NCBI GenBank assembly: GCA_964023275.1
Contig: OZ029927.1
Coordinates: forward strand, 14,919,952-14,983,951
Source: Norana najaformis
Lineage: Eukaryota > Annelida > Clitellata > Crassiclitellata > Hormogastridae
Length of the DNA stretch: 64,000 nucleotides
Direction of reading: 5' to 3'
Part shown: positions 5,126-62,936 of the stretch, piece after piece
How the letters are laid out: each line of letters starts with the position of its first letter
Position numbering within the stretch: the stretch's first letter is position 1
Program-made: the position numbers and the translations under genes
The notes under the pieces: model-generated
What the model saw: only the letters and a program-made list of their open reading frames with translations
Told to the model about the DNA's origin: nothing
Database searches by the model: none

Positions 5126-5260
5126 TCCAACGGCTCAAAAAACATTCTCGGCCCATCTTAAGACTCACCTTTTTGGAAATGCAAGTCATGCCGCAGTGCC
5201 TTTGTGAGCTTCTTAAAATGCGATATATAAGTTTATGGATACATGCATACATACAGTGCA
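5065..5260 (+). mobile_element. LINE 3' end: C-terminal codons, 3' UTR and (ATAC)n tail
   Basis: The last minisatellite unit continues as WNILHLEIRT, then FSAHLKTHLFG, ending at a stop near 5207. This matches the usual order WNSLPxxIR then FKxxLKTHLF at the end of ORF2 in CR1/L2-like LINEs. A short 3' UTR follows with GTGCCTTTGTGAGCTTCTTA and ATGCGATATATAAGTTTAT, then an ATAC-type tail. The same 3' UTR occurs on the minus strand at 18115-18200, 39584-39660 and 62516-62596. The rest of the LINE is missing. Confidence 0.7.
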
Positions 5261-5279
5261 TAAGTTCTCGTTGTAGGAT

Positions 5280-6890
5280 GGCGGTATGGCGCCATAGATA
5301 CGACACTGGAGAGCACATTGAAGTTAAGCAAAACGCCGAGCACATTTGGCAATTAATATAAAGTCAAAAATGAAGATATCAATGATGCTGTACGCACCAT
5401 GAGATGTAATATGTGAAATCATAGACATTGCCATCTTTAAAATTCTTGAGCAGTAATTACCTTAAGCTCCTTAACAATCTCTAATAATAGAGACTTATTT
5501 CCTGGGTTATATTCTCCTAATCACACATATGCATATTAGGAGCTGCAAGGTTACGCATGGTTGCTCCTAAAAGACGAATTTGGCGACGTGACATAAAGAC
5601 AGCCAGCTCCAATCTCTGCATCTCATAAATATAAGGTGTAGTTGCACACCTACTTGCAATAACACGATTGACTGAGCACAGAAAGCTGGGCTGTGCTGCG
5701 GGCATAACTTCGTTCAAAGCTTTTCTTTGACTACTCGTAACTCTGTAGAAAGCAGTAATAACACTACATATATATATTTATGTTTAATATTGAGTATCGA
5801 CGCTCAGTGAAATGCATTGACGTCATAGTTATAACAATAACAGCCATGAGACATAATAACATAACATACCATAACATAAGCCACTTTGAAATATATAGCT
5901 GTATACGGTGGATGCAATTATGTGTTTCTGAACATACAACGATATTAAAGCGCTATATCAAAACTGCAGCAGACATACAATAATATGTAGGCCTAAAACA
6001 AACAAATACATGAAAACTGAAAACGTTGGATTTAAAACCTGTGGGAAAATATATGCAAAAGCGCTTACGAGTTGCCTTCTTCCTGCAAGTAAGACAAGGT
6101 AAGGTACCTTAACCTACATTATATACTCCGGAGACACACACATCCACTTGATGTCTTCTATTCTTTGTACGCCTCACAGCCAAAGCACAGAGACTAATAA
6201 TGGAATTGACACTCTGCTCTGCGACAGCGATTGATACCTGGCACGAGAGCTACGTAACTTACCTGGTGAAAAAGAAACCACCCTAGAAAAAGAAAACTAC
6301 CCACGATGACGTCATATCCTGCCAGTGAACTCTCGCCGAGCCAAAAACACGAGATTTATTGAAGATAGGTTCCTTTAGCGCATGCATGCCGCACTAACTG
6401 TGACCTGCACATGTCGTAAATTCACCTCGGGCGATGTGTGTGTCTCTCTCTAACGGTCTCAGCTGTGACGCACTTCCTGTGTGACCTAAAGAAAAACTGC
6501 CGTCCACACATTAATCAAAACGTATCCGATAAATAATTGGGAGCAAAAATTTGGACAGAAATTTCAGCATGATGTGCACTTAGCTGTTTGGCAGCTACAT
6601 TGTATTTTTGTAAAGTTGACCATCATTAGTTCATATGAAAGCAAACGCTTAAAATCTTTAGAAATATATTCATGCTATATATAATTTTTATCATTTGTTT
6701 CTCGGCGTTTACTCAGTCACAAAAAGCAAGTTGATCAGTTCACGTGTTCACTTCAAAGTTGATAAAAACAAATGCGAAAAAATATTTTTTTAAATGCAGA
6801 GGTATATATCTGAAAATCCACTAAACATTTCAGGCACAGAATAAAACACAGCACTGCCAAATGTAGCCACTAGTAAGGCAAACTTGGAGC
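5280..6890. other. Intergenic, no recognised feature
   Basis: Ordinary AT-leaning sequence. Open frames at 5517-5717 (minus) and 5780-5983 (plus) are short and resemble no known protein. No RNA gene or clear repeat was seen. Confidence 0.45.
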
Positions 6891-6895
6891 AATTG

Positions 6896-7030
6896 GTGAA
6901 GAGCTAACAGAGGAAGGCAGACAGGCAGGCAGGCAGGGAGGTAGAGAGGTAGGCACGCAGGGAGGGAGGGAAGGAGGGAAGGAGGAAAGAAGGAAGAGAT
7001 GGAGGGAAGGAGGCAGGCAGGTAGGGACAA
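6896..7030 (+). repeat. Purine-rich GGCA/GGGA/GGAA tract
   Basis: An imperfect tract of AGGCAGGC, GGGAGGGA and AAGGAGGG units. The minus-strand frame LPACLPLYLPACL is a translation of the repeat and not a gene. Confidence 0.8.
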
Positions 7031-7559
7031 GCATGAAGGCAGAAATCGTTGATGAATGGATTGATGAATGAATGGCTGCAGATGTGTTTATCGATTATAT
7101 CTAGAAGATATGATTGAGGCGATTCCCATCATCATTAATTCACTCATCGACCCTATACAGGGTCTCTTCCAGATATCGATTCAGAGGCGCTCACAGTCCA
7201 ACCTTGATTCGACCTCAGCTACTGCTCAAACTGATCAGAAACCGGAGTAGGCAGAACTGACGTCGGCCGAGAACGGTCGAATCTCATGATTTATACCTTT
7301 ACACGCGATATTCCGAGATGACTGAAACGTCTGTATGATCCATCGGTCTATTTCTCAGCCGAAATAGGCCTACAGAGACGATCGCTGTTGTGGTAGGCAT
7401 GGATTATTGATGGGCCGATGCAGAGGCCTATCTGGCACTGAGCTGGTGCTGGTGGCCGTTGCCTCCTTGGTTCGGGTTATTGCCGTCTATGCATGCACGC
7501 GCGTGTTTCATATCTGCCGTCGTCAGTGGTCGATGTATAGTGCTCGATAGCGTGATCTT

Positions 7560-7740
7560 CAGTAGCAGCAGCCGCAGCCGCAGCGGAGTTGGTTGGCTTC
7601 AGCGGCAGCAGCAAAAGCAGCAGCAACGGTCTTCTGGCATTTGTCATCGTCGTCTCCAAACAGACGATTGAGAGAGAGAGAGACAGAGACATTGAGAGAC
7701 AGAGAGAGACAGAGCGAGAGATACAGAGAGAGACCCAGTG
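7560..7740 (+). repeat. CAG-rich stretch followed by (GA)n
   Basis: AGCAGCAGCCGCAGCCGCAG and related units, then GAGAGAGACAGAGA repeats from about 7670. Overlapping frames on both strands are translations of the repeat. Confidence 0.7.
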
Positions 7741-8261
7741 AGGCATCGACGCATAGCAGGTGGCACAGATAGACATCATGAGTAAAACTGAGTAGCAGAG
7801 GGAGGCATATACAGATACAGAAGCAGCTCTACAAAGAGGCACATCCAGACGTACACGTAAAGTCAAAGACAACATCATCAGAATAGAACGGGTTGTCTAT
7901 ACAGACTCATTTAGACCCAGGAGCATCACAGACAGGTCTTCTTCACAGACAGCCACAGGGAGAAGGACACATAGAAATAGCGAGACAAGTAGAGAGACAA
8001 AAAGACAAAGAGGAGGAGGCATCATATCTAAAATTGAAACAGACGAAAAATCGTCTATTCGTTTCCAACTGGATGCTCTGTCCTCCTTCCTTCCTCTCTT
8101 CCGTCTGCTGCAGGTGAAAGGTTCGCTGGCATCGTCCATCGCCGTCTGAATTCACGTGAGTCTCATTATCAACGTCACTAATCATACACGGTTTTATTTC
8201 AGCGAAATTGGAAGAACGTTCAGGCGATGCTTCAATCATTTACTCATTGGTGTATTGGTTT

Positions 8262-8496
8262 GGTTTGTTCGTTCATTTGTCCATTCGTTCGTTCATTCGA
8301 TCCTGGTTCATTTCAGTGAGTCAGTCATTCATTCACTGATTCAGTCAGTCAGTCAGTCTCTTCGCCAGTCAGTCAGGTATTCAGTCAATCAGTCATTCAG
8401 TGAGTCAGTGAGTCAGTCATTCATTCATTGATTCAGTCAGTCAGTCAGTCAGTCAGTCAGTCAGTCAGTCAGTCAGTCAGTCAGTCAGTCAGTGAC
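8262..8496 (+). repeat. (CAGT)n microsatellite with CATT variants
   Basis: Starts as GTTC/CATT units and becomes pure CAGT over the last 75 bases. The plus-strand open frame SQSVSQSFIH over this tract is an artefact of the repeat. Confidence 0.9.
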
Positions 8497-10454: not shown

Positions 10455-10560
10455 ATGTGTATATATGTATGTATGTATCTGGTTGTTTATATAGCACCTT
10501 TAAAGAACCTCAAAAACCCCTAAAACATGGTTATTTAACAGTTCCAAAAAGGTGTGATTT
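10455..10560 (-). mobile_element. Retroelement 3' end on minus strand with short ATAC tail
   Basis: On the minus strand, AAGGTGCTATATAAAC is followed by ATACATACATAC. This is the shared 3'-end motif of the window joined to its microsatellite tail. Upstream sequence is not recognised. Confidence 0.45.
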
Positions 10561-11508: not shown

Positions 11509-11539
<31 letters not shown>

Positions 11540-11592: not shown

Positions 11593-11779
11593 AAGATAGC
11601 CGAAGCAACCGTTGGATATACATGTGGTATTCTGTTGCAAATTCTATTGCAAATGTATGTATAATAGTTTCTTCTGAAAGAAACGCTATATAATACAATA
11701 CAATACAACACCGCCCATTGTGATGATTGGGCCACTTAGAATGCAAGCCGTGCATGGGATGCTGGGATTGTAGGAACGC
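11593..11779 (+). repeat. Dispersed repeat copy containing both shared blocks
   Basis: This copy joins the AGATAGCCGAAGCAAC block (also at 10702) to the TTTCTTCTGAAAG block (also at 9748). Between them lies AACGCTATATAATAC followed by a short AATAC tail, the 3'-end motif typical of this window. It is the most complete of the three copies. Confidence 0.7.
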
Positions 11780-11829: not shown

Positions 11830-12015
11830 GGGGCACGGTAGCATATTGGATAGAGCGCTGGGTTGTGACGCGGAGAGTACGGGTTCGAGCCTCTTTCGAG
11901 ACGGTTACTGTGTAAGAAGTTTGAGCAAGTCCTTCACTCACAATTGCACGGCGCCATCGATTAATGCTAAGTTATGAGATAATGGCGCCTAACAAATGCA
12001 GAAATAATAATAATA
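11830..12015 (+). mobile_element. tRNA-derived SINE, type 1
   Basis: The head GGGGCACGGTAGCATATTGG and the later GGGTTCGAGCC resemble the A and B boxes of a tRNA gene, with a TTGTGA-like anticodon loop between. The body contains GAGCAAGTCCTTCACTCACA and a GGCGCCATCGATTAATG segment. It ends AATGGCGCCTAACAAATGCA followed by AAT repeats. Close copies lie at 37374-37516 and 53713-53900, with fragments at 28643-28700 (plus) and 26075-26237 (minus). About 185 bases is a normal SINE length. Confidence 0.85.
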
Positions 12016-17778: not shown

Positions 17779-18118
17779 TACATGTATGTATGTTTTTGCG
17801 TATTATGTAAATATGAATGTATGTATGTATGTATGTATGTGTGTACCAATATATATGTATGTATGTCTGTATGTATTCATGTACGTATGTATGTATACAT
17901 ATATGAATGTATGTACTTATGTATGTATGTATGTATGAATGTATGCATGCATGAATGTATGTATTTATGTATGTATGTATGTATGTATGTTTGTATGTAT
18001 GAATGTATGTATGTATATATGTATGTATGTATGTATGTTTGTATATATGTATGTATGTATGTATGTACTGTATGTATGTATGTATGTACTGTATGTATGT
18101 ATGGATGTGTGTATGTGA
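17779..18118 (+). repeat. (ATGT)n microsatellite
   Basis: About 340 bases of ATGT with AATG, CTGT and TTGT variants. It runs directly into a minus-strand retroelement 3' end at 18119, so on the minus strand it is the tail of that element. Confidence 0.95.
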
Positions 18119-18200
18119 ACACTTTATTTAGCGTCTTTTAAGTATCTCACAAAAGCGCTGCCTTCGCTAACCTAAATACTGTTAAAGTCGTTACGAATAA
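18119..18200 (-). mobile_element. (ATAC)-tail LINE 3' UTR fragment
   Basis: On the minus strand GGCAGCGCTTTTGTGAGATA, CTTAAAAGACGCTAAATAAAG and then GTTCACATACAC lead into the ATAC array. The same 3' UTR follows LINE codons at 5131-5235, which identifies this fragment as the end of that LINE family. Confidence 0.65.
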
Positions 18201-19170: not shown

Positions 19171-19630
19171 CATAAAATACACAGCCTATGGAAGAACACA
19201 TCCGCGTCGGTTACGAATAATAGTCGTTGTTATCCGCAAGTCTGCCATACAAAACGCATTCAGGGCCATTCCCAAATTGGCTGCTATCGGCCATACACGC
19301 AACTCAAGTGCCTTCGTGGAGTATACGCTGGCATGCGATTCCGCCCTAAACACGCCTGGGATTCATGTGGTCAGGCATTTCTACTCGTTGGCTGGTCGTA
19401 ACACGACGCTTCTACAGGTTGTCTTGTCTGGCTGTAGCAATAGCGAATGTTTTCAATTCTAATCTAATAGGGGCACTTCTATCGCGCCATTATCGCAATA
19501 CATAAGACAGCAATCGATGGTAACTTCGACGTGAAACGGCGTTCCATGATCGCGATTTGCTTTGGACAGAACCAAGATTCGTTCGTTCGTTCGTTCTATC
19601 TGTCTTTCCTCAATGTTTCAGGCATTTATA

Positions 19631-19802
19631 GGGTAGACCCAAAAAGGGACGGAAGTCCCGCTTAATACAGAGATTTGAATCTCGGGCTAAGAAAGGTCCG
19701 TGCACGGGGACCTTAAATGGCGTGTAGCAGTGGTGAAGGGTCTCACCCGTTAAGGTCAAGGCCATACGGTCGCTATAGAAAAACGTGTACAATTTACAAT
19801 TT
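19631..19802 (+). mobile_element. (ACATTT)-tail retroelement 3' end, extended copy
   Basis: Begins GGTAGACCCAAAAAGGGACG and GAAGTCCCGCTTAATACAGA. It continues with the CCTTAAATGGCG core, then GCCATACGGTCGCTATAGAA and AACGTGTACAATTTACAAT. It reaches further 5' than the other copies and shows that the GGGTCTACC phrase near 3770 belongs to related elements. No coding was recognised. Confidence 0.7.
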
Positions 19803-22124: not shown

Positions 22125-22467
22125 CTCGATCAATGGACAATGAATCTTGTTGTGCCTCGTACCAGGACAGCATTGGATTCTCGAGGGTTCTCGGTTGTAG
22201 TTCCACGGCTTTGGAATTCGCTTCCGAGTTCTGTTCCTTCTGTCAGTTCTTTGATGTCGTTCAGGTCAAAACTTAAGACGCATCTCTTTCAACTTGCTTA
22301 TCGACCGTAGCCATACTTCTGGTTTCTCTGACCTATCGAAATTCGACCTGGATTCTCCAGTGGATCATGAATTTTATTACAATTTCACTCGAAGCGACCA
22401 TCGACTGATGCAGTGGGCATTATGATAACGGCGCTATAGAAGTCATTAGATTAGATTAGATTAGATC
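22125..22467 (+). mobile_element. LINE (CR1/L2-like) C-terminus, 3' UTR and (AGATT)n tail
   Basis: A frame from about 22140 reads NLVVPRTRTALDSRGFSVV, then PRLWNSLPSSV, then SFRSKLKTHLFQLAY and a stop at 22310. This is the usual C-terminal order in CR1/L2-like LINE ORF2 after the reverse transcriptase: VPRTRT, GxRxFSVxxPRLWNSLP, FxxxLKTHLF. The 3' UTR continues through GAAGCGACCATCGACTGATG to ACGGCGCTATAGAAGTC, then ATTAGATTAGATTAG. The polymerase domain is absent, so the copy is 5'-truncated and cannot move itself. Related 3' ends lie at 55747-55840 (minus) and 62840-62936 (plus). Confidence 0.85.
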
Positions 22468-26074: not shown

Positions 26075-26237
26075 TCATAATCCGCATTTATTAAGCGCCA
26101 CCATCTAATGACTAAGAATAAATTGTGAATGAAGGACTTATTCAAAGTCCATACACAGTAACTGTCCTAGGAGAGGTTCGAACCCCTCCTCTCCGCTTTA
26201 CAAGCCTAGAGCTCTAACCATGCGGCTACCCGAACAT
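26075..26237 (-). mobile_element. tRNA-derived SINE type 1, minus strand, diverged
   Basis: Read on the minus strand: GGTAGCCGCATGGTTAGAGC, then GGTTCGAACC, then ACTGTGTATGGACTTTGA, and an end GGCGCTTAATAAATGCGG. This is the same order as the plus copies at 11.8, 37.4 and 53.7 kb. A and B box phrases are visible. It is more diverged than those copies and lacks an AAT tail. Confidence 0.7.
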
Positions 26238-26754: not shown

Positions 26755-26935
26755 GTAATTGTAATTTGAGATTCATAAAGCCCCTCTTAGAGGATAAACT
26801 CAATAGAGGTGCTTCCGACCCGAAACGGTAAAATCGCTGTTAAACAGTACAGTCTTCAGGCGACTGCAGAACACTTGGGAGGGGGAGAGAAAGGAACTCA
26901 AGTCGCAATTCTCGAGGAAGACGATTTTCGTTGAA
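26755..26935 (-). mobile_element. LINE 3' end (C-terminus and UTR), minus strand
   Basis: On the minus strand a frame reads SRLKTVLFNSDF, the FxxxLKTxLF end of CR1/L2-like ORF2. A GAGTTTATCCTC UTR follows and the end is GGGGCTTTATGAATC, then ATTACAATTAC. A matching copy lies at 31450-31620. The upstream reverse transcriptase is missing. Confidence 0.7.
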
Positions 26936-26937: not shown

Positions 26938-27010
26938 CTATTGTATTGCATTGTATTGTATTGTGTTTGGCAACTTATATAGCTCTTCTTACGGAACAAA
27001 CTACTCAGAG
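26938..27010 (-). mobile_element. Retroelement 3' end with (AATAC)n tail, minus strand
   Basis: On the minus strand AAGAGCTATATAAGTTGCC is followed by AATACAATACAATGCAATAC. It abuts the neighbouring LINE end and so forms a pair of nested or adjacent insertions. Confidence 0.55.
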
Positions 27011-27105
27011 GCGTTTCCAGCATAAGAACCCCGCGGAAATAAGAAATAACTCCAATAAAATGTACATGTATCACACTTATGCTACTGACATATGTGCTAT
27101 TTTCA

Positions 27106-28395: not shown

Positions 28396-28642
28396 TTAAA
28401 GAGGCAGTCATGCAGGCACAAATTGCGAAGCCATGCGACATCTCGACTACTAACAGAATTAAGCTGCACGAGTGCTCCTTCTTCTCCACGGCTTCTTTTG
28501 CACGGGCTCCTCACAGCAGAGAACATCGAAACTGCGAGTAGAAACTAATTTAAAGTTTAATGAGGTACATATCCGCCTTTCTGTTATTAAACACAACACA
28601 TTCAGGTCTAAGTAAATCAATCGCTCAGTTACCGTTTCTGCT

Positions 28643-28760
28643 GGGACACGGTAGCCGATTGGCTTGTAACGAGGAGAGTACGGGTTCGAACCTTGTAACG
28701 CGTAACGCATGCATGCATTCATTCATGTATGTATTCATGTGAACATTCATATAGCGACGA
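28643..28760 (+). mobile_element. SINE type 1 head fragment, internally deleted
   Basis: GGGACACGGTAGCCGATTGG runs straight into CTTGTAACGAGGAGAGTACG and GGTTCGAACC. The ATAGAGCGC part seen in other copies is missing. The body after the B box is lost and ATGC/ATTC repeats follow, running into a minus-strand AGCGACG end motif at about 28745. Confidence 0.6.
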
Positions 28761-28834
28761 TCCGGAGCCTCCAACGGCGTTATATAATATAGATTGTTAA
28801 GATCAGTTTCTTAGGCGAGTGGAGAAGTGATCAT

Positions 28835-29269: not shown

Positions 29270-29420
29270 TCTAGTATGTATATATGTATGTATATATATG
29301 TATGCATGTATGTATGTAGGTATCAATATGTGTATGTAAATGTTTGTATGTATGTATCAACCTAGACATTTAATATAGCGCCTGTCAGGTTGCTCTCTAA
29401 ACGCTAACTGATCTAAACAA
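29270..29420 (-). mobile_element. (ATAC)-tail retroelement 3' end, minus strand
   Basis: GTAT units at 29275-29356 run into a segment which on the minus strand ends CAGGCGCTATATTAAATG. The GAGAGCAACCTGA part just upstream is not known from other copies. Confidence 0.5.
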
Positions 29421-29431: not shown

Positions 29432-29875
29432 GACAGACATGCATACATACATACATATATACATACATACATTCATACATACATACATACAATCATACAT
29501 ACATACATACGTACATACATACATACATACATACATATATACATAAATACATACAAACATACAAACATGCATAAATACATACATACATATATACATAAGC
29601 ACATGCATACATATATACATACATACATACATATATTTATACATACATACATGCATACATACATATATACATACATACATATATTTATACATACATACAT
29701 GCATACATACATATATACATACATACATACATACGTACATACATACATACATACATATATACATAAATACATACATACATATATTCATACATACAAACAT
29801 ACATGCATACATACATACATATATACATAAATACATACATACATATATACATACAGATATACATACATAATTAAG
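29432..29875 (+). repeat. (ATAC)n microsatellite with ATATAT/ATAA variants
   Basis: About 440 bases. A block of about 63 bases containing ATATTTATACATACATACAT occurs twice near 29632 and 29685, showing local duplication. Frames over it are artefacts. Confidence 0.9.
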
Positions 29876-31449: not shown

Positions 31450-31620
31450 TTGCTATTGTAATTGTAATTTGAGATTTATAAAGCGCCTCTTGGAGGATAA
31501 ACTCAACAGAGATGCTTCCGACCCGAAAAAATAGAATCACTGTTGAACAGTACAGTCTTCAGGCGCCTGCGGAACAGTGAGAGGGGGAGAGAAAGGAGCT
31601 CAAGCTATTTATCTAGAGCC
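31450..31620 (-). mobile_element. LINE 3' end, second copy of the 26.8-kb family
   Basis: Minus strand: RLKTVLFNSDS, GTTGAGTTTATCCTCC, AGAGGCGCTTTATAAATC and ATTACAATTACAAT. It matches 26755-26935 nearly base for base over 150 bases, apart from small indels that shift the frame. Confidence 0.75.
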
Positions 31621-33453: not shown

Positions 33454-33473
33454 GCCACACATACATGCATACA

Positions 33474-33507
<34 letters not shown>

Positions 33508-36436: not shown

Positions 36437-36499
36437 CCTACGATGTCTCGCTCAGCCGATGGACCCATGGCGTGTTAACAAATGTCTTACTTACTTGCT
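36437..36499 (+). mobile_element. (ACTT)-tail retroelement 3' end
   Basis: CCTACGATGTCTCGCTCAGC, then CATGGCGTGTTAACAAATG, then TCTTACTTACTTGC. Same module as at 42932-43009. Confidence 0.65.
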
Positions 36500-36547: not shown

Positions 36548-36725
36548 AATAGTAATCGTAAACTCGAGATTTCTACAGCGCCAAACGAAAGCTTAGTCGC
36601 GGGAACCAGCTTATCTACAAGCACTCAGTCAAAACAAAGTCGATAGGCGAGAAGGGTTCGGCTCCAGATCAAGATCCAAGAGTCAGGCAGGCAGGCAGTC
36701 AGACAGCTACAGTGGATGGTGTTTT
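36548..36725 (-). mobile_element. Dispersed retroelement with (CGTAAT)-like tail, minus strand
   Basis: On the minus strand it reads in the same order as 48356-48541: CTGCCTGCCTGACTCTTGGA, TCTTGATCTGGAGCCGAACC, GGTTCCCGCGACTAAGCTTT, GGCGCTGTAGAAATC, then ACGATTACTATTACG. The two copies form an inverted pair 12 kb apart. No coding was recognised. Confidence 0.75.
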
Positions 36726-37373: not shown

Positions 37374-37516
37374 GGGCATGGTAGCCGATTGGACAGAGCC
37401 CTTGGCTTGTAACGCGGAGAGTACGGGTTCGAGCCTCTCTAAGACGGTTGCTGCGTCATCACTTGATCCTCAGTCAATAGACAGTGGCGCTTAATAAATG
37501 CAGAAATAATATTAAT
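37374..37516 (+). mobile_element. tRNA-derived SINE type 1
   Basis: GGGCATGGTAGCCGATTGGA, CTTGTAACGCGGAGAGTACG, GGTTCGAGCC, a shortened body, then AGTGGCGCTTAATAAATGCA and AAT repeats. It lacks the GAGCAAGTCCTT segment found at 11.8 and 53.8 kb. Confidence 0.85.
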
Positions 37517-39400: not shown

Positions 39401-39460
39401 ACATATTGGTGCTATCGCCTAAGTAGGCCTAATAAATGAAAAAGAAGTCCATTAAGGTAT

Positions 39461-39660
39461 ATGTATGTATGCATGTATGTATGTATGTATGTATGTATGC
39501 ATGCATGTATGTATGTATGTAAGTTTGTATGTATGTATGCATGTATGTATGTGTGTATGCATGTATGTATGTATGTATGTATCACTAAATTTGTATAGCG
39601 CCTTTTAAGTAACTCACAAAGGCGCTGCAGCACGGCTACCTAATGAACTCTAAATAGGAA
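39461..39660 (-). mobile_element. (ATAC)-tail LINE 3' UTR with its tail
   Basis: On the minus strand CTGCAGCGCCTTTGTGAGTT, ACTTAAAAGGCGCTATACAA and ATTTAGTG lead without a gap into about 120 bases of ATAC units (39461-39583). This is the clearest case in the window of a microsatellite being the tail of a retroelement. Confidence 0.75.
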
Positions 39661-42299: not shown

Positions 42300-42930
42300 G
42301 GCGGAACGCATTGTAGTAATACAAAACGAAAGAGAAGGAATAAACGAAGCGAATGTGATATTAAATGAAAGAAAAGATGGAGTTGATGACACGGAATGAA
42401 CAGACGTGAGACAATGTAGAGCAGAGGTCTTTGTTGTTTGGTCAGGCGGCCAAAGGTTCAGATGATAGGGTGTTTGGATTTTGTTTGAAAGTTTTTCATT
42501 GACAAACATACACCCATCTATGCAAAAATGTAGACTGTTGTTTAGGAAGTCTTTCAGAAACAAATATCATCTGTGTGAAAATGTAGAGCAGGTTGTTTTC
42601 TGGTGAGGTTCAGGTTGTCATTATATCTGCTTTGAGGATAAATATACCTACTACATTCGTCCTTTCAAATATATATATATATACATTACATATACATGTA
42701 TTTATTAAATATATATATATATATATATACATTGTATAGACATGTATCTAATACACATCCTCGTTAGATCAGGTGACAAATGTTAAAGCTTTATGAGATG
42801 TTATCAAAAAGCGCTATATAAATATTAAAAATGCTTTTTATTAATTGTTTCTAATACTAGGCTGAAATTCATATGTTCTTCCGCTGTAGCTGAGTGTCAT
42901 TATGTGTATTTAATTGTTTACATGTTTGTC
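42300..42930. other. Intergenic upstream of the kinase subunit; two (TA)n tracts and one end motif
   Basis: Short TA tracts at about 42670-42682 and 42710-42729. AAAAGCGCTATATAAATAT at 42807-42825 is a plus-strand copy of the shared retroelement 3' end. No promoter elements could be identified with confidence. Confidence 0.45.
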
Positions 42931-42931
42931 G

Positions 42932-43009
42932 ATGCCTGCGATTCCTCGCTCAGCCGATGGACATACGGCGTGTTAACAAATGCATTACTTACTTACTTTA
43001 CTTACTTCC
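42932..43009 (+). mobile_element. (ACTT)-tail retroelement 3' end just upstream of the kinase gene
   Basis: GCCTGCGATTCCTCGCTCAG, CATACGGCGTGTTAACAAAT, then CATTACTTACTTACTTTACT. It ends 79 bases before the start codon of the kinase subunit. Its pyrimidine-rich tail runs into TTCCGTTGCAG, which could serve as a 3' splice site (AG at 43015-43016). Confidence 0.75.
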
Positions 43010-43087
43010 GTTGCAGTTGCTGAATCTGAGCCGAGAGCATCCCGAATTCATTTCTCGCATCGATCCTCAGTCATCCCCCTATCGACG

Positions 43088-44197
43088 ATGAATTGCGAGA
43101 TACCGGACGGACTGAGCGAGCTACTTCGAGACTTCACGGTCGCCGTTCTCCGGCACCGTCCGGAAAACCTGTACGAATTCGCGGCCGACTACTTCGCCAA
43201 GGTACGCAACGCCCGGACGTCCAACGCCGTCCCTATGTACATCGTCGTTCAGGACGATGCCGACGCTCGCGAGCCAGACCCGGCCGTCTTCAAGCCGAAG
43301 ACGGTCAAGCAGAACCGATTCGGTCGACGGCACTCCGTCTCGGCTGAGCGCTACGACCCGGAGGCGGACGAGGAAGAGGAGGACGAGGAGGAGCGGAAGG
43401 TGACCTACGCCAAGAACGACTCTCAGCGCCAGCGACTGAAGGATGCGGTGAGCGGGATCCTCATCTTTCGGTCTCTGGAACCGGAACAGATGAATGACGT
43501 AATCGACGCCATGTTCGAGAAGAAGGTCGTGCCGGAAGAGCACGTGATCGAACAGGAAGACGACGGCGATAACTTCTACGTCATCGAAAGCGGTGCTTAT
43601 GACGTCATGGTCAAGATGGAGGGAGGCGAACGGCGCAAGGTGCATCGCTTCGAGGACAAAGGGAGCTTCGGAGAGCTGGCGCTCATGTACAACATGCCAC
43701 GCTCGGCCACCGTGGTCGCCGTCACCCCTGGGACGTTGTGGGCTATGGACAGGAAGTCCTTTCGACGTATCGTCCTCAAGAGCGCCTTCCGCAAGCGCAA
43801 GATGTACGAACAGCTGCTGGAGACGGTTCCGATGTTGCAGGCCTTGGAGAACTACGAACGGATGAATCTCGCCGATGCTCTGATATCGGCCATCTTCGAA
43901 GACGGGGACTGCATCATCCGCGAGGGTGCAGAGGCGGATGGCATGTACTTCATCGAGGACGGGGAGGCCAAGGTGACGATCACCAAGGACGGAAAGGAAA
44001 CGGAAGCGGCGCGCGTCCTCAAGGGCAGCTACTTCGGCGAAATGGCGCTCGTTGAGAACGCACCGCGGTCGGCTAGCGTTTATGCCGTCGGGAAAATGAA
44101 GGCGGCATTCCTAGAGCGGAAATGCTTCGAACGTCTGCTTGGACCGTGTCTAGATATCATGAAGAGAAACATCACCACGTACCAGAAGAGTTCTTAA
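43088..44197 (+). CDS. PRKAR2: cAMP-dependent protein kinase type II regulatory subunit (single coding exon)
   Basis: An intact 369-residue protein. Residues 7-45 form the dimerisation/docking helix pair that binds A-kinase anchoring proteins. R80-R81-H82-S83-V84 is the inhibitor sequence that occupies the catalytic subunit's active site; a serine there marks type II. An acidic linker (93-102) follows. Cyclic-nucleotide domain A has FGELALMYNMPRSA at 194-207 (Glu196, Arg205 contact cAMP). Domain B has FGEMALVENAPRSA at 316-329 (Glu318, Arg327). Length is slightly below the roughly 400 residues usual in vertebrates. I chose the ATG at 43088 because its product starts directly at the docking domain and the base at -3 is A. 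An in-frame ATG at 42980 lies inside a retroelement tail. The frame has no introns although vertebrate genes of this family are split, so it may be a retrocopy or an intron-poor gene. In cells it holds the catalytic subunit inactive until cAMP binds. Confidence 0.95.
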   Translation: MNCEIPDGLSELLRDFTVAVLRHRPENLYEFAADYFAKVRNARTSNAVPMYIVVQDDADAREPDPAVFKPKTVKQNRFGRRHSVSAERYDPEADEEEEDEEERKVTYAKNDSQRQRLKDAVSGILIFRSLEPEQMNDVIDAMFEKKVVPEEHVIEQEDDGDNFYVIESGAYDVMVKMEGGERRKVHRFEDKGSFGELALMYNMPRSATVVAVTPGTLWAMDRKSFRRIVLKSAFRKRKMYEQLLETVPMLQALENYERMNLADALISAIFEDGDCIIREGAEADGMYFIEDGEAKVTITKDGKETEAARVLKGSYFGEMALVENAPRSASVYAVGKMKAAFLERKCFERLLGPCLDIMKRNITTYQKSS

Positions 44198-46086: not shown

Positions 46087-46151
46087 AAAGTAAGTAAGAA
46101 AATAAGTAGGACATTTGTTAACATGCCATGTGTCCATCGACTGATCGGCTG
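46087..46151 (-). mobile_element. (ACTT)-tail retroelement 3' end, minus strand
   Basis: Minus strand: AGTCGATGGACACATGGCAT, GTTAACAAATGTCC, then TACTTATTTTCTTACTTACT. Same module as 42932-43009, diverged. Confidence 0.6.
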
Positions 46152-46320: not shown

Positions 46321-46505
46321 AATAAATATAAATGTAAATGTACATGTTTTCTATAGCGACCATATGGCCTCGACCCTGCTCAATTTTCAAAGAATTTATC
46401 GGGTGAGATCCTTCACCACCGCTGCCCGTTTGAATAGGCGCCACGCCATTTAAGGTCCTGTGTACGGACCGCGCTAACTCGAGATTCGTATCTCTAAAAT
46501 AAGCG
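46321..46505 (-). mobile_element. (ACATTT)-tail retroelement 3' end, minus strand, long copy
   Basis: Minus strand: TTAGCGCGGTCCGTACACAG, CCTTAAATGGCGTGGCGCCT, GAAGGATCTCACCCGATAAA, GGTCGAGGCCATATGGTCGC, TATAGAAAACATGTACATTT. With the 19.6-kb copy this defines at least 170 bases of the element. Confidence 0.75.
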
Positions 46506-47337: not shown

Positions 47338-47433
47338 CAAGTAAGTAAGTAAGTAATGCATTTGGAATCGTAAGTAAGTAAGTAATGCATTTGTTAACAC
47401 GCCATATGTCCGTCGACTGAGCGAGCAGTCGTA
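47338..47433 (-). mobile_element. (ACTT)-tail retroelement end with duplicated tail
   Basis: Minus strand: ATATGGCGTGTTAACAAATG, CATTACTTACTTACTTACG, then ATTCCAAATGCATTACTTAC and ACTT units again. The end of the element and its tail are present one and a partial time, as from a tandem slip or an insertion into another copy's end. Confidence 0.65.
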
Positions 47434-47720
47434 TGTATGTATGTGCATATAAGTATGTGCATATAATTATGTGTGTAGGTATGTATTTATGTATGTATTC
47501 ATGTATATATGTGTATGTATGAATGGACATCTGTAGGCATGTATGTATTAAAGAATGTGTATTTGTATATGTATGTATGTGCACATGTGTGCATATATGT
47601 AGGCCTATATATACCTGTATGTATGTATATGTACGTATGTACGAAGGTATGTATGCATATATTTAGACACTTAACATAGCGCCTTTAGGACGTCTAGACG
47701 CTCATCGTTCAAATTCTCGC
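47434..47720 (-). mobile_element. (ATAC)n tract with retroelement 3' end, minus strand
   Basis: ATGT units at 47434-47660 run into ATTTAGACACTTAACATAGC and GCCTTTAGGACG. On the minus strand this is AAAGGCGCTATGTTAAG followed by an ATAC tail. It resembles 29357-29420. Confidence 0.55.
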
Positions 47721-48135: not shown

Positions 48136-48296
48136 AACTACGCCTACACTCAGTCGATCGACATATGGCGTATTAAGAAATGCATTACTAACTAATTTAC
48201 TTACTTACTTTCGTACTTACTTACGTGCTTGGTTGCTTACTTACTTACTTACTAACTTAAGAACTTACTTACTTAAGAACTTACTTGAGAACTTAC
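48136..48296 (+). mobile_element. (ACTT)-tail retroelement 3' end with long tail
   Basis: CTACGCCTACACTCAGTCGA, CATATGGCGTATTAAGAAAT, then more than 100 bases of ACTT with AACTTAAG variants. The longest tail of this family here. Confidence 0.7.
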
Positions 48297-48355: not shown

Positions 48356-48541
48356 GTTCATCATCCACCATAGCCGTCTGCTGACTATCTGCCTGCCTGA
48401 TTCTTGGATCTTGATCTGGAGCCGAACCCTTCTTGCCTGTTGATTATGTTCTGACTGAGCGCCTGTGAACAGGCTGGTTCCCGCGACTTAGCTTTCGCTG
48501 GGCGCTGTATAAATCTCCACTTACGATTACGATAACGATAC
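48356..48541 (+). mobile_element. Dispersed retroelement with (CGATTA)-like tail
   Basis: Plus-strand partner of 36548-36725: CTGCCTGCCTGATTCTTGGA, TCTTGATCTGGAGCCGAACC, GGTTCCCGCGACTTAGCTTT, GGGCGCTGTATAAATCTCC, ACTTACGATTACGATAACGA. Another partial start of a similar element may lie at 48560. No coding was recognised. Confidence 0.75.
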
Positions 48542-48599: not shown

Positions 48600-49430
48600 A
48601 GGAAGAATTCAGAAAAGAACCAAATTGGTCTCACAATAAAGAGTTTGGGTAAGACATTCGCATCTTCGTACAAATAATAATGCAGCAAGGCGTAACCCAG
48701 TCACACAATTCGAAAGGTTAAGGCGACCGAAAGAAAGGATACGGTTGATAAACATGTTGATACCAAATGAGGTTTTAATCTCGAGCTGTCCGGCGTTAAA
48801 TATTGACAGAGTGGACAGAAATGGACGGAAAATTAACGTGTCACCTTCGATCAACAACCAGCGAGACGGCTTGAGAGGCAAACACTCCTGGTGGGAGGAA
48901 CTGCAAGAGCCGGAGTTCAGTTTATCAAGCATAATATTTGTTGAGCTGGGGGCGAGGAATGTATACATTCACAGTCTTTGAGATATTCATAAAAGGTGCT
49001 ATACAAATATCTAGCTACGTTCATGCATATACATTCCTAGCTTCCTACGTAAACCACCATCTCATAACTCCTATCTCTTGAAGGGTCATTTCCTCACATC
49101 CATGAACACGTGATGCGATTAGGCCAAAGATGAATATTTCATAGTGTTTCCTCCTTGTCGCCATACCTAATCTCAATAGAAATGAGATATAATCTCATAT
49201 AGTCTCCGGCCGCATACAGCATTTTGCCGATTGTCCAGAGGATACGACAGACCTTTACAGAACGTCGCGAAACAGTCGGAAAGAGACCGGAGATTAACAA
49301 CTGAGGAGGGACCCGCCGAGTGGGCTCGCCGTGTGCACCAATTCTAGATGCGCATTTCTGATGCGATTCCGACGGCGTATACTTTGCCCAGAGCAAAGGT
49401 CGACGTCACAGAACCAATTTATACTTCGAA
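48600..49430. other. Intergenic; retroelement end motif at 48991-49010
   Basis: AAAAGGTGCTATACAAATAT at 48991-49010 is a plus-strand copy of the shared end. The open frames before it (48745-48981 plus, 48609-48968 minus) overlap on opposite strands and I do not recognise either. The plus frame may be eroded retroelement sequence, given its position. Confidence 0.4.
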
Positions 49431-50046: not shown

Positions 50047-50700
50047 TATGCGTAATGTAATGTAATCAAAAATTTATAAAGCGCCACTTCAAGGTAAACT
50101 CCTCAGAAGCGCTCCCGGCCCTACAACCCAGAAGCACTGGGGAATAAGAAGGTTTTCAATATCTTGCGGAAAAGAGGAGGAGATAGACTAGGAAGTTCCT
50201 GGCGTAGGTCATTAGGAAGCCCATTCCAGAAAGCGGGACCAACTACAGCAAAACTTCTGCGCTGGGCCGTAGCTGTTCGGACTGATGGGACAAGCAAGTC
50301 ACCCCGTACCGCCGAACGAAGTAGTCTGCGGCCCGGAATGGAGGAGGCCAAAACTCAGAGCTCCCTGAGAAAAATGGGGCGCAACCTAAGAGGCAATTAC
50401 GTACAAGGGCCAGGATTTTAAATTTTATACGCTCCTGGATAGGCAGCCAGTGAAGCTCCCGTGAAATGTTAGCAGAGATGTGGCCAAACTTAGGAATACT
50501 TCCGATCAGACGAGCAGCAGCGTGCAAGATAGACTGTAGTTGCGAGATGCAGGAGAGACTCAAGCCAGCAAAGACAGCATTGCCATAGTCAATCCTGGAA
50601 CAGATAAACGCATGGACCAGAATGGTAGCAGCCTGGGTCGTGAGAGAGTGGCGGATGCCTAATATGTCCGCATATATATTACATATGGCCATGAATATTC
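50047..50700 (-). mobile_element. LINE (CR1/L2-like) ORF2 C-terminal third, 3' UTR and ATTAC tail, minus strand
   Basis: Minus strand, in order: ILGIRHSLTTQAATILVHAF, SRIDYGNAVFAGL, QLQSILHAAARLIG, ELHWLPIQERIKFKILALV. After one frameshift near 50340-50375 it continues LLVPSVRTATAQRRSFAVV, GPAFWNGLP and ILKTFLFPSAS. This is the standard order downstream of the reverse transcriptase catalytic site in CR1/L2-like LINEs (SRxDYxN, LQxxxxAAARLI, LHWLPxxxR). The UTR ends GTGGCGCTTTATAAATTTTT, then GATTACATTACATTACGC. The 5' part, with the catalytic motifs, is absent. It is the longest LINE remnant here and is dead. Confidence 0.9.
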
Positions 50701-51047
50701 TATTTTGTGTGTGTGAAATTGCAGTCGACACATACGGTCGGTTGGCTCTTTTCGGTCGTTTGGCGAAGCACATCGGACAAACACTTACGTATTCTGGCAA
50801 ATGGCGCGAAAACGACCAAGTGGATTGTCTATGTGACATTCACGATGGGCGTCATCATTCCCGAATCAGTTCGTCTATCCAACCTTCTGTCTGTTTGCCT
50901 CTCTGCCTCTCTGACCATCCTTCTGTTCTTAGTTTTCTTTCCGTATATCCATCCTCTTCTCTGTAAGTCTTGTTCTCTCAACATATCTTTTGTCTGCTTT
51001 CTCCTCTCTGTCTATCTAAAATTTGAACTTATATTTATGCTTAATTT
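50701..51047. other. Sequence between the LINE and the right inverted arm
   Basis: No gene recognised; includes CT-rich stretches from 50880. The minus frame 50243-50839 extends into it, but its recognisable LINE similarity stops near 50690. Confidence 0.45.
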
Positions 51048-52889: not shown

Positions 52890-53590
52890 CATCTTCATTG
52901 ACATTTCTATTGGAATCATTTTCACGTTCGAAAAGAACCTCCCAAGGTCAGTGAGAAATGCCACGCCACTGCTGCTGATGGGGTCATTTTTCGGAAAGCA
53001 TTTCATCTTGTTTTTGGAAACTCGAGCAAGATGAGTTCAAACGCTGGATGTCGTACACCCTCGTTCTGGTGATTCTTTATCCTTGCTCTCTTTCCATGAT
53101 ACGAAAATTACTCAGTCAAACGAAAACTGATCGATAATATAGCAGAATCCTTCAATCCGGCGTTATTAAATGCTCCACTCCACGTCTATTTTTATACGTC
53201 TGAGTGCATGGAATTGTGCGTGTACCTTCCTGCCTGGCTCCCTGCTGGTCTGTTTAATATTTCTATGCTTTGGCTCCACGATTTCCTGTCGTGTAGTTTC
53301 TCCTAAGTCTGCCCCCAAAGCGTGTACACAGAGGGCGCCAATAAATGTCGTCTGGTCTCAGTGCCCTGTCAACACTGGACAGGATATGGGGAGGGGAGAC
53401 ACGCCCAGACCGTCCTCGCTCTCCTCCAGTGTCAACAGGCGCTGCCAGATGGCGGTAAACAGTCCGCAGGATATGATGAGTAGAAGGCGATCGAGCGTTG
53501 ACGCTGAACGAAAACATCCATGAAAGTGGGCGTCATTATGACGTCACTGGAAAGTACCAGCACGTCAACACTGGCGTTATATTAAATGTT
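52890..53590. other. Intergenic, somewhat GC-rich, no recognised gene
   Basis: Overlapping frames on both strands at 53170-53523 and 53263-53517; neither resembles a known protein. Confidence 0.4.
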
Positions 53591-53712: not shown

Positions 53713-53900
53713 GGGGCACGGTAGCATATTGGATAGAGCGCTCGGCTTGTAACGCGCAGGGTACGGGTTCGAGCCTCCTCCGAGACGGTTACTGTGTAGG
53801 GACCTTGAGCAAGTCCTTAACTCACAATTGCTCGGCGCCATCGATTGATGGATATCATTAGATAGTGGCCCCTAATAAATGCAGATATAATAATAATAAT
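53713..53900 (+). mobile_element. tRNA-derived SINE type 1, best-preserved copy
   Basis: GGGGCACGGTAGCATATTGG, TAGAGCGCTCGGCTTGTAAC, GGTACGGGTTCGAGCC, GACGGTTACTGTGTAGGGAC, TTGAGCAAGTCCTTAACTCA, CGGCGCCATCGATTGATGG, CCCTAATAAATGCAG and AAT repeats. The TTGTAAC loop would place a TGT (threonine-type) anticodon. ATAC-type repeats lie on both sides. Confidence 0.88.
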
Positions 53901-54682: not shown

Positions 54683-54745
54683 GTGTAAATGTAAATGTAT
54701 AGGTTTTATATAGCGCCCGTACGGCTCGTGTAGACCGACTACCCA
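54683..54745 (-). mobile_element. (ACATTT)-tail retroelement end, short, minus strand
   Basis: Minus strand: CACGAGCCGTACGGGCGCTA, TATAAAACCTATACATTTAC. Only the last 60 bases are left. Confidence 0.55.
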
Positions 54746-55746: not shown

Positions 55747-55840
55747 AATCTAAACTAATATCTAATCTAATGACTTCTATAGCACCGTTTCATAATGCTC
55801 AAGGCATCAATCGATGGTCGCTTCAAGTCAAATCGCAGTC
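55747..55840 (-). mobile_element. (AGATT)-tail LINE 3' end, minus strand
   Basis: Minus strand: GCGACCATCGATTGATGCCT, TGAGCATTATGAAACGGTGC, TATAGAAGTCATTAGATTAG. It matches the 3' UTR of the LINE at 22380-22467. Confidence 0.7.
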
Positions 55841-56214
55841 AAAAATCATATACCGTTGGAGAAGCCGGGTCGAATTCCGATGGGTCAGAGAAACCAGAAG
55901 CCAAGCTATGGTGGGTAAGCGAGTCGACTATGCAAGCGCTCTTTTAGTGTGTACTAACTGGATATCAGTGCAAGGCTTGACAAGATGTAAGTCAATCGTT
56001 CAATATGATGTCATTGGAACAGCAGATTCTTTGTTGTATGCCTTTTTTATATGCTCAGTAGTTTTCTTTGTTTTTCTGTCCAGCTTTTCGATAATCTTCA
56101 CCTACACTGTCCGTTTCATCAATTCAGTTATTTCAATCTCACTTAGGCCTAATCAACAAGCCTGTCACTCATTTATTCAGCTACTCAATGAATCAGTCAA
56201 TCACTTAATCACTT

Positions 56215-56599: not shown

Positions 56600-56740
56600 T
56601 AAATTAAATGTACACGTTTTTCTATAGCGACTGTATGGCCTCGACCCTGCTTAATTTTCAGTGTTTTGGTTGGATGAGATACTTCACCACCGCTGCCCGT
56701 TTGAATGGGCGACGCGCCATTTAAGGTCCCCGTTTACGGA
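56600..56740 (-). mobile_element. (ACATTT)-tail retroelement 3' end, minus strand
   Basis: Minus strand: CGTAAACGGGGACCTTAAAT, GGCGCGTCGCCCATTCAAAC, GGTCGAGGCCATACAGTCGC, TATAGAAAAACGTGTACATT. Confidence 0.75.
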
Positions 56741-56969: not shown

Positions 56970-57115
56970 ATGGCTAGGGCGTGGCGCTCATTAAAATGCA
57001 CAGCGGTGGAAAAGGATCTCACCCGATTAATTCATTGAAAATGAGTAGGGTCGAGGCCACACGGTCGCTATAGAAAAACGTGTACAGTTACATTTGGTAA
57101 CACGCCATATGTCTG
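56970..57115 (+). mobile_element. (ACATTT)-tail end adjoining an (ACTT)-type fragment
   Basis: GTGGCGCTCATTAAAATGCA, GTCGAGGCCACACGGTCGCT and ATAGAAAAACGTGTACAGTT lead at about 57090 into ACATTTGGTAACACGCCATA, which on the minus strand is the end of the (ACTT) family. Two elements meet here tail to tail. Confidence 0.65.
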
Positions 57116-58040: not shown

Positions 58041-58042
<2 letters not shown>

Positions 58043-60356: not shown

Positions 60357-60430
60357 GAGTAAGTAAGTAAGTAAAGCATTTGGTAACACGCCATATGTCC
60401 GTCGGTTGATCGAGGAATCGTAGGCCTGGA
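60357..60430 (-). mobile_element. (ACTT)-tail retroelement 3' end, minus strand
   Basis: Minus strand: CCTACGATTCCTCGATCAAC, ATATGGCGTGTTACCAAATG, CTTTACTTACTTACTTACTC. A well-preserved copy. Confidence 0.75.
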
Positions 60431-60814
60431 CAAACACACAAACAGTTAAACATATGACACAGACAAACAAATAAAAGAAGATGCACAGCCACAGATGCAG
60501 ACATACAGAATGACACTGAACCACAAAGACCGCAATATAAATCTCCGAAATACATCTAAGTATAAAAAAGCTGCGTCAGGAAGACCAGTCCATTAACTGG
60601 CCCTGTATAAAATCAAGTCCGCAAGAACTAGGTTGTTAGGTCAGTTTCGGTGTCAGGTCAGAATCCGAGGAGGGGCCGTAGCAGACAGCGTATTGTTAAG
60701 GTGGGAATCCAGTGTACAGTCTGGCGATGAATTCGCGAACGATGCTCACAGCAGAGGCCATGTTGGTTCATTGGGAGCATGCAGTGGGCGAGGAATCGTG
60801 GAGAGTGTTAAAAT

Positions 60815-61237: not shown

Positions 61238-61238
<1 letters not shown>

Positions 61239-61272
<34 letters not shown>
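61239..61272 (+). repeat. (CTG)n trinucleotide repeat
   Basis: Eleven CTG units, the third such tract in the window. Confidence 0.95.
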
Positions 61273-61629: not shown

Positions 61630-61968
61630 TTATCTGTCTATCTGTCTGTCTGCCTGTCTGCCTGTCTGCCTGTCTGCCTGTCTGCCTGTCTGTCTGTCTA
61701 TCTATCAATATATCTATCTATCTATCTATCTGTCTATCTGTCTGTCTGTCTGCCTGCCTGCCTATCTATCTATCTGTTTGTCTGTTTCTCTGTATGTCTG
61801 CCTGCCTAGCTGCCTGTCTATCTATCCATTCATCTGTCTATCAATTAATCAATCAGGCAGTCACTCAGTCAGTCTGTGTGCCTGTGTGTGTCTGTATGTG
61901 TCTGTCTGTCTGCCTGTCTGTGAGTGTGGGCGATATTTAGTAGGCACAGAAGGGCGCTATATAAATCC
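61630..61968 (+). repeat. CTGT/CTGC/CTAT array ending at a retroelement end motif
   Basis: About 290 bases of CTGT, CTGC and CTAT units, then AGAAGGGCGCTATATAAATC at 61949-61968, a plus-strand copy of the shared end. Here the array lies before the end motif, so it is not that copy's tail. Confidence 0.8.
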
Positions 61969-62059
61969 TATAGCATATTGCATTAGACACTTGCTGCAGT
62001 CCGTTGTCTCTCGGTTTCTTAGTAAACGTCGTTCAAATAGGAATCAAAAGTAACGATCA

Positions 62060-62135
62060 ATCATACGGGTCTCACTTGAAGAGGCGCTAAACAAATTTAT
62101 GAATACAATTCCAGCTACAGTTACAATTATATGAC
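62060..62135 (+). mobile_element. Retroelement 3' end with ACAATT-like tail
   Basis: GGGTCTCACTTGAAGAGGCG, CTAAACAAATTTATGAATAC and a loose run of ATTCCAGCTACAGTTACAAT. Upstream coding not recognised. Confidence 0.45.
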
Positions 62136-62324
62136 ATATCAAATATCATAATAATCGATCGCGTTGCTTGGAAATCATTAGCGCTAGTCTAGATCATGGA
62201 TCATCTCTTTAATCAGAGGGTAATCGCTGGTCTGTGTTTCAAGACTAATTCCTTTCAGACTCTCATCTTTGGCTTGTGTTACAGCTTTCGTAGAGACGAG
62301 CTTTGGAAGAGCATGAGAGAGTGT

Positions 62325-62596
62325 GCGAGCGTGCGAGAGAGGAAATGAATGAGTGAGTGAGCGAGTGAGCGAGTGAGAGTGAGAGTGAGCGAGCGAGCGA
62401 GTGAGTGAGAGTGAGAAAGTGAGTGAGCGAGTGAGCAAGTGAGCCAGTGAGTGAACGAGTGAGCCAGTGAGTGAACGAGTGAGCAAGTGAGCCAATGAGC
62501 CAGTGAGAGTATCTACAAACTTAATATAGGCGCCTTTTAAGTGGCTCGCAAAACCGCTGCCTACGCTAACCTTATCTAACAGACGGGCTAAAGTAA
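62325..62596 (-). mobile_element. LINE 3' UTR with (CTCA)-type tail, minus strand
   Basis: GTGA/GAGC units (62330-62512) run into ATCTACAAACTTAATATAGG and CGCCTTTTAAGTGGCTCGC. On the minus strand this is the 3' UTR of the (ATAC)-tail LINE family (GGCAGCGGTTTTGCGAGCCA), but its tail is CTCA/CACT instead of ATAC. Confidence 0.65.
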
Positions 62597-62705
62597 CTGC
62601 CTGACTTTATGGCTGACTCATTGATCAATTTAAATAATTACTGTCGAATCTTGTTCTCGTGTGATTCTTCCGAGCAGAGAGTTCGCAGTTCTAACGTGAC
62701 AATCT
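62568..62705 (+). repeat. Direct duplication, copy 2 (pair with 59648-59774)
   Basis: See the partner. The two copies are about 2.9 kb apart in the same orientation. Confidence 0.85.
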
Positions 62706-62839
62706 CTCCACATTAAATTTGCAGATCTGTCAAGCCCAACTTACGTTAAACCGATTTGATCTTCCGCACTGACTTGATGAATTATTGATGATCTTTCATC
62801 TATCTGCAAGCCTGACATCGGCGTTAAGAGTTCTTAATG

Positions 62840-62936
62840 GACCGACCCTTGGCATTGACTTCATCGATTGAAGTCTAATGTATTATTATAATGGCGCTAT
62901 AGAAGATCTAAGATTAGATTAGATTATAGAAAGGTA
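62840..62936 (+). mobile_element. (AGATT)-tail LINE 3' end
   Basis: TTCATCGATTGAAGTCTAAT, AATGGCGCTATAGAAGATC and TAAGATTAGATTAGATTA. Same end as 22380-22467. Confidence 0.65.

Follow-up and report, generated by a model that had tools for sequence, protein, structure and literature searches.

What kind of sequence is a short motif that recurs on both strands of an annelid genome segment, often with a microsatellite behind it whose repeat unit differs from place to place? The segment is a window of 64,000 nt from Norana najaformis (contig OZ029927.1, positions 14,919,952 to 14,983,951), and all counts below refer to this single window. The motif, GGCGCTATATAAAT, is matched 48 times when up to 3 mismatches are allowed, compared with a mean of 6.01 in 100 dinucleotide shuffles (standard deviation 2.73, maximum 14); about 6 of the 48 are expected by chance. 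It is very probable that the motif represents the 3' termini of several related, 5'-truncated families of long interspersed elements (LINEs) of the CR1/L2 type, and of a tRNA-derived short interspersed element (SINE) that has borrowed such an end, each terminus having a recognition stem, a spacer and a microsatellite made by slippage.

An initial annotation of this DNA estimated about 30 occurrences on both strands. The motif is indeed abundant on both, and its frequency (48 vs 6.0 ± 2.7 in shuffles) is not that expected from base composition. All 23 positions that the annotation listed carry the motif within 10 bases; 21 are matches with up to 3 mismatches and two, at 11682+ and 62521- (position and strand), are more diverged. 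The first reads AACGCTATATAATA and is followed by AATAC repeats. The second, GGCGCCTATATTAA at 62521-62534 on the minus strand, lies within a covariance-model match with an E value of 1.3e-4, from a model trained without that copy.

The sequences upstream of the motif represent several distinct families, as had been proposed. The core of each family was obtained by BLAST of the 400 nt 5' of each match (E < 1e-3; the family labels are our own), and further copies were added by alignment, covariance model or eye, which places 25 of the 48 matches. All members of F2 (19475-, 22430+, 55773-, 62893+) and F3 (19769+, 39281-, 46347-, 56618-, 57064+, 54704-) were grouped by BLAST, as were F5 (36569-, 48501+) and four F1 copies (5219+, 18122-, 39589-, 48995+); 10485-, 2193- and 62520- were added to F1 by alignment or model. 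F6 (29369-, 47670-, 53573+) was assembled by eye and F4c (26973-) by alignment. One BLAST group (26771-, 31474-, 50072-) was divided into F4a and F4b, and the tail was one reason for the split. Three matches were left out although joined by BLAST, 39919+ and 62083+ (to F1) and 61953+ (to F3); the joins of 62083+ and 61953+ rest on 27 and 21 bp, motif included. A further family with ACTT tails, also named in the annotation, is present in 8 copies vs 0.25 expected, but its motif is diverged, GGCGTGTTAACAAATGC. Within groups, stretches of very unequal length stop at the motif, i.e., there is 5' truncation with a common 3' end. The common stretch is mostly 23 to 75 bp in the ACTT family, where this range covers most pairs of copies, and 21 to 170 columns in the other groups. 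At 57064-57106 an F3 end and an ACTT-family end lie tail to tail on opposite strands and have ACATTT/AAATGT in common at the junction, which could be an insertion joined by microhomology.

Translation of the 300 nt 5' of 36 sites reveals ends that resemble the C-terminus of the LINE open reading frame 2 (ORF2) product. They are read in four groups, and at least four families with such codons had been predicted: F1 (5219+, 39589- and, less clearly, 10485-), F2 (22430+), F4a (31474-, 26771-) and F4b (50072-). Most end in LKTxLF. In BLASTP comparisons of these C-termini, 22430+ matches 50072- with E 6e-10 and 5219+ matches 50072- with E 5e-5; the match of 5219+ with 22430+ is weak (E 0.007). The best LINE fragment, at 50243-50839, shows no outside relative in a protein scan, and a search of solved structures with it gives two chance-level matches only (E 0.65 and 1.6). 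Directly 5' of the F1 end at 5219 is a 61-bp minisatellite of 14 copies (4271-5127, plus strand). Its translation resembles the LINE ORF2-like C-terminus (FWNILPLEIQTLP), and it is apparently derived from LINE coding sequence.

The tail unit follows the family. Seven candidate units were scored over the 45 nt 3' of the motif in 34 placed copies, which comprise 25 of the 48 matches, 62521- and the 8 ACTT copies. The unit assigned to the family scores highest in 29 of 34, vs a mean of 7.1 with permuted labels and none as high in 20,000 permutations; since the family units were read from the same tails, this is a measure of consistency and not a prediction. LINEs of the stringent type characteristically terminate 3' in short tandem repeats whose unit tracks the family, as is seen here. 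That tails differ by family thus stands, but several of the units first named need correction. Arrays of TTGTA are present (11708-, 26950+, 37134+) but are antisense readings of AATAC arrays. ATTAC is correct for 50072-, but 26771- and 31474- of the same BLAST group have the 6-base unit AATTAC, and the AAT tail, although present, belongs to the tRNA-derived SINE. The description of the tails as exchangeable is not supported; what is seen is that they differ between families. As to tails and strand, the observation is stronger than was claimed. Written in one rotation the units are TACA, TACT, TACAA, TACAT, TAGAT, TACAAT, TACATT and TACGAT, a step series noticed post hoc.

Five tRNA-like heads of one SINE family are present, and four continue to the motif. 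The heads have an A and a B box; the A-box pattern is matched without mismatch at 11882+, 37426+ and 53766+, with 1 mismatch at 26184- and with 4 at 28683+. No tRNA gene is found by ARAGORN. In the 60 nt 5' of the motif, SINE copies 11882+ and 53766+ resemble all 4 F2 copies (p 0.001 to 0.036). When the same two are set against six other families, each represented by one copy, p is < 0.05 in 1 of 12 comparisons (53766+ with F1, p 0.021). Two of the three SINE copies tested therefore have a 3' end homologous to that of a LINE of the same genome. An alignment of 3 SINE and 4 F2 ends has a mean column identity of 73%, a value that includes within-group likeness and the motif. Judged by eye, the SINE stem GGCGCCA...TGGCGCC keeps its pairing, with an outer pair unlike that of F2. 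Because the SINE tail is AAT and not the ATTAG of F2, the true partner may be a related LINE outside the window. At 28608-28800 (plus strand) a tRNA-like head leads into a 3' half of another kind, which has ATTC-like repeats; judged by its sequence, this is a chimeric or rearranged SINE copy.

Retroelement ends that form families, 3' tails mostly fixed by family and of one orientation, and ORF2-like termini fit stringent 3'-end recognition combined with slippage. In the RNA, GGCGCT would form the 3' arm of a stem in several families, though not in all, with an AGCGCC-like 5' arm upstream of it and about 7 to 31 nt of loop between the two. The reverse transcriptase of the element would bind this stem loop, and copying would begin in the short repeat beyond a short AT-rich spacer, with slippage. 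By slippage of the reverse transcriptase each insertion would gain a fresh microsatellite of its family's own unit. Early stopping, with mostly about 20 to 170 bp in common, would leave mainly the recognition module and the tail visible.

Several observations weigh against this explanation. The CR1/L2 likeness of the ORF2-like C-termini is presumed from the look of the sequences. In CR1/L2-type LINEs (Jockey superfamily) ORF2 encodes an endonuclease and a reverse transcriptase, whereas the coding sequence read here consists of C-terminal remnants; Pfam gives no match, and hence no reverse-transcriptase domain, in the best LINE fragment, the rest of the window being unscanned for such domains. 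Twenty-three of the 48 matches have no family place in the tail test (two of these, 26086- and 37486+, are SINE copies), and the BLAST group of F4a and F4b contains two units, AATTAC and ATTAC. Five of the 34 tails miss the assigned unit: 48995+, 62521- (TCAC-like), 57090- and the F4a pair 26771- and 31474-, which miss because AATTAC is outside the seven units scored. SINE copy 37426+ shows no likeness to F2, nor to the other families compared. The stem was examined with a gapless test in which the 9 nt ending in GGCGCT were matched with the best partner 9 to 50 nt upstream and compared with random stretches of the window. Over all 48 matches, p is < 0.05 in 6 (2.4 expected) and < 0.1 in 10 (4.8 expected). 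F3 is without a stem and F2 is not significant in this test, which is blind to the one-base bulge with which the F2 arm AGCGACC could pair. Covariation is weak in 13 aligned F1/F4-type ends, where 47 of 500 shuffles score at least as high as the real alignment. Folding of the 48 matches gives z <= -2 in 4, namely 39589-, 48501+ and 53573+, which have such a stem, and 62893+, which does not.

In the 13 ends 76.9% of cells pair, shuffles giving 75.8% and slid partners no more than 65%; the number of pair types is reached in 482 of 500 shuffles, and two slides beat the observed covariation score of 0.202 (+1, 0.224; +3, 0.204). A double change from T-A in F1 to C-G in F4, which 4 of the 13 rows show, may have occurred only once. 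Covariation is unconvincing as proof of a hairpin. Covariance models with and without structure have the same 14 best matches, so that structure adds little. When eight hairpin stretches are folded on their own, 39589- is the one that stands out (z -2.77).

The weak covariation, the small stem excess over the 48 matches and the stemless F3 are what one would see if the motif were conserved for another reason, such as an element processing or polyadenylation signal or a site bound by a host factor, and if the hairpin were incidental. We regard this as rather unlikely. Complementary 5' arms exceed expectation in 40 placed copies, with p < 0.05 in 7 (2 expected) and p < 0.1 in 15 (4 expected); these copies include the ACTT and SINE copies, 39919+ and 42810+, were gathered after the test of the 48 matches, and are not independent within families. 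The lowest values are those of 39589- (0.0017), SINE copy 11984+ (0.0043) and 48501+ (0.015). In addition the SINE, a different type of transcript, has its arm and loop in common with F2. Single copies of F1 (39589-), F5 (48501+) and the SINE (11984+) have a clear stem with GGCGCT as the 3' arm; for F4a, F4b, F4c, F6 and the ACTT family the signs of such a stem are suggestive. From the sequences, a stem in several families with a loop that differs by family is likely, but not proven. A loop that varies by family fits the published picture of zebrafish L2, as given in PMC4176376. The common recognition hairpin suggested in the annotation is in part upheld by the 15 of 40 placed copies, but not as a property of all families, given 10 of 48 overall, the weak covariation and the lack of a stem in F3.

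Tandem repeats lie 3' of the motif in 27 of 48 matches and 5' in 6, random positions being 27% tandem. Viewed from the arrays, 43 are made of one of eight family units; read in the sense direction, 19 of them have the motif no more than 60 nt away 5', vs 0 of the same 43 read antisense. For other units (11 units in both orientations, 22 in all) it is on the 5' side in 0 of 62 array readings. One array may count under more than one unit, the ninth unit, AAT, yielded no array by the rule used, and 5 TACT arrays are scored as misses because the ACTT-family motif is too diverged. A preference of the elements for existing microsatellites of a given unit, which they would enter and not create, predicts the own unit on both flanks. 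Some LINEs target simple repeats, the window is rich in microsatellites, and ACTT copy 47387- adjoins ATAC-type repeats. However, the scored 5' flanks are free of the own unit in 8 of 8 ACTT copies (80 to 125 nt 5' of the motif) and 4 of 4 SINE copies (45 nt); in ACTT copy 57090- and SINE copy 26086- it is absent 3' as well. The arrays on one side and one strand, and the unit-free 5' flanks, speak against insertion into existing arrays as the main cause, and such target-site preference is therefore very improbable here. Very long ACAT arrays at 29433-29869 (437 bp) and 33459-34088 (630 bp) have no recognizable motif 5'.

It is hardly credible that the ends belong to a single element family with random or decayed tails and that the families are an artefact of divergence. 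In its favor, the F1 and F4 ends can be aligned across the hairpin, the ORF2-like ends are homologous, and F4a and F4b fall into one BLAST group with different units. Against it, the upstream sequences separate by BLAST, save for copies placed by alignment or eye, and the label permutation disfavors random tails.

A compact set of LINE ends within 64 kb lets one ask how the tail unit changes while the recognition end is kept. One speculative proposal, which we consider doubtful, is that a 3' module common to many LINE families and a SINE is retained as the unit of the repeat 3' of it shifts in small steps. If the module were cross-recognized, the tails would belong to one shared priming system as an appendage free to evolve, and a new class of microsatellite would arise in the genome with each change of unit. 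Of the 43 arrays, whose units are tetra- to hexanucleotides, at least 19 are traced to LINE leftovers. For marker work this is a warning that such microsatellites are dispersed repeats with common flanks.

Table 1. Positions of the LINE-type and SINE ends in the window
Feature	Position	Strand	Remarks
F1 (unit ATAC), best-preserved 3' module	39589-39626	-	stem AGCGCCTTT...AAAGGCGCT then ATACAAAT; stem p 0.0017; fold z -2.77; tail array 39460-39582
F1 copy	18122-18177	-	BLAST; tail array 17782-18116
F1 copy, ATAC tail	5177-5232	+	ORF2-like C-terminus FSAHLKTHLF directly 5'
F1 copy, ATAC tail	10485-10540	-	alignment and model, not BLAST
F1-like copy, degenerate tail	48953-49008	+	BLAST, model
F1-like copy, degenerate ATAC tail	2193-2247	-	alignment and model
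F1-like copy, exception to tail rule	62520-62576	-	outside model training set; one ATAC, then TCAC-like tail
F2 (unit ATTAG)	22131-22466	+	ORF2-like C-terminus 22131-22307, 3' untranslated region, motif at 22430, tail
F2 copy, ATTAG tail	55773-55927	-	81% over 166 columns vs 22430+
F2 copy, ATTAG tail	19475-19536	-	BLAST
F2 copy, ATTAG tail	62862-62906	+	BLAST
F3 (unit ACATTT) copy, motif GTCGCTATAGAAAA	39281-39394	-	BLAST
F3 copy, ACATTT tail	46347-46468	-	BLAST
F3 copy	56618-56740	-	BLAST
F3 copy	56978-57077	+	BLAST; ACTT-family end 57090-57106 on other strand shortly 3'
F3 copy, degenerate ACATTT tail	19751-19782	+	BLAST
F3-like copy, ACATTT tail	54704-54728	-	BLAST
F4a copy, unit AATTAC	26771-26902	-	88% over 142 columns vs 31474-
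F4a copy, unit AATTAC	31474-31604	-	ORF2-like C-terminus FRRRLKTVLF
F4b (unit ATTAC), longest LINE remnant	50072-50839	-	ORF2-like C-terminal region in two frames (50839-50243, 50354-50124), then module, tail
F4c copy, unit AATAC	26973-27033	-	alignment and model
Short copy, AATAC tail	11682-11706	+	diverged motif
F5 (unit TTACGA) copy	48359-48540	+	stem AGCGCC...GGCGCT
F5 copy, TTACGA tail	36569-36721	-	84% over 159 columns vs 48501+
F6 (unit ATAC, spacer TGTCTAG) copy	29369-29405	-	grouped by eye
F6 copy	47670-47702	-	grouped by eye; stem p 0.032
F6-like copy, ATAC tail	53573-53586	+	grouped by eye
ACTT-family end GGCGTGTTAACAAATGC, degenerate tail	2465-2521	-	diverged-motif search
ACTT-family end	36469-36485	+	diverged-motif search
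ACTT-family end	42909-42983	+	diverged-motif search
ACTT-family end	46111-46127	-	diverged-motif search
ACTT-family end	47387-47443	-	adjoins ATAC-type repeats behind F6 copy 47670-
ACTT-family end	48167-48183	+	diverged-motif search
ACTT-family end, without TTAC tail	57090-57106	-	about 19 to 24 bp in common with other copies
ACTT-family end	60376-60450	-	diverged-motif search
tRNA-derived SINE (A and B box), AAT tail	11830-12015	+	3' end GGCGCCA...TGGCGCCTAACAAAT
tRNA-derived SINE copy, AAT tail	53713-53898	+	87% vs 11830-12015
tRNA-derived SINE copy	37374-37516	+	tRNA-like head, runs to motif
tRNA-derived SINE copy	26086-26230	-	5' arm of stem lost, AAT tail gone

Two other open reading frames are present. 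The plus-strand frame at 42977-44197 is an intact single exon that encodes a cAMP-dependent protein kinase type II regulatory subunit, with RIIa and two cNMP-binding stretches; its best solved relatives are type II subunits, and its presence is in keeping with animal DNA. The open frame begins inside an ACTT-family end, and it may be a retrogene or else a single exon that follows an intron. An open reading frame fragment at 63487-63732 (plus strand) has a weak zinc-finger match of the Spin-doc type (E 0.014, below the cut-off) and might be a gene or a DNA transposon remnant.

Searches of databases and literature were also made. Rfam, which includes the UnaL2 family, gives 136 matches to the window up to E 5, none at the gathering score; they are mostly microRNA models on simple repeats, and none is named as a LINE element. 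Three DNA patterns searched in viral contigs are found in 0, 0 and 2 stretches, both without a repeat tail, and the one match in prokaryote genomes, in a metagenome-assembled genome of Omnitrophota, is coding and coincidental. A literature text search for the motif strings yields no paper on a retroelement, judging by titles, and no published description of this motif set was found in a search that left out most subscription journals. A published primer for a tetranucleotide microsatellite locus of the salamander Dicamptodon tenebrosus has GCGCTATATAAATCC beside (ATAC)18 (PMC3002275), i.e., the same motif with the F1 unit. The locus is not named as a retroelement where that source describes it, and a relation to F1 may be supposed.

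The annotation regarded the arrangement as undescribed, which does not hold for its parts: a hairpin with short repeats is known in CR1 and fish L2, and microsatellite ends in lepidopteran RTE. In lepidopterans, RTE 3' ends are reported to represent 10% of the microsatellites in GenBank, and 3' partial copies with slippage explain many microsatellites (PMC2887409), as they would here; RTE has an extremely short 3' untranslated region, and the elements of the window would belong to a different clade. The CR1 and RTE clades are described as dominating the known SINE/LINE pairs (PMC3747384). Fish L2 elements and partner SINEs have a common stem-loop tail and short repeats, for which a slippage model is given (PMC2653535). 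According to PMC4176376, a stem loop near the 3' end of UnaL2, ZfL2-1/-2 and HAmoL2 is required for retrotransposition, with loop-specific recognition, and in zebrafish L2 recognition of the stem is ascribed to one region of the protein and that of the loop to a variable region. The SINE of the window is like the HAmo SINE, which has the same tail as HAmoL2 (PMC4176376, PMC2653535). Apparently unlike the loops here, the HAmo/UnaL2 loop is GGAUA, for which no systematic search of the window was made. Amniote CR1 has a conserved 3' hairpin and an octamer microsatellite, and avian CR1-W a 10-mer; as in the window, the hairpin is followed by a microsatellite whose unit may vary by family, from the accounts in PMC4316615 and PMC8665684. 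Unlike CR1, the window combines an AAT tail with eight further units, each of them 4 to 6 bases long, in only 64 kb, and the 3' motif that precedes them is a different one. The mechanism proposed is known in kind; the novelty lies in an unusually rich set, in which 64 kb contain nine groups of ends as well as a SINE and the units follow a step series around TACAT.

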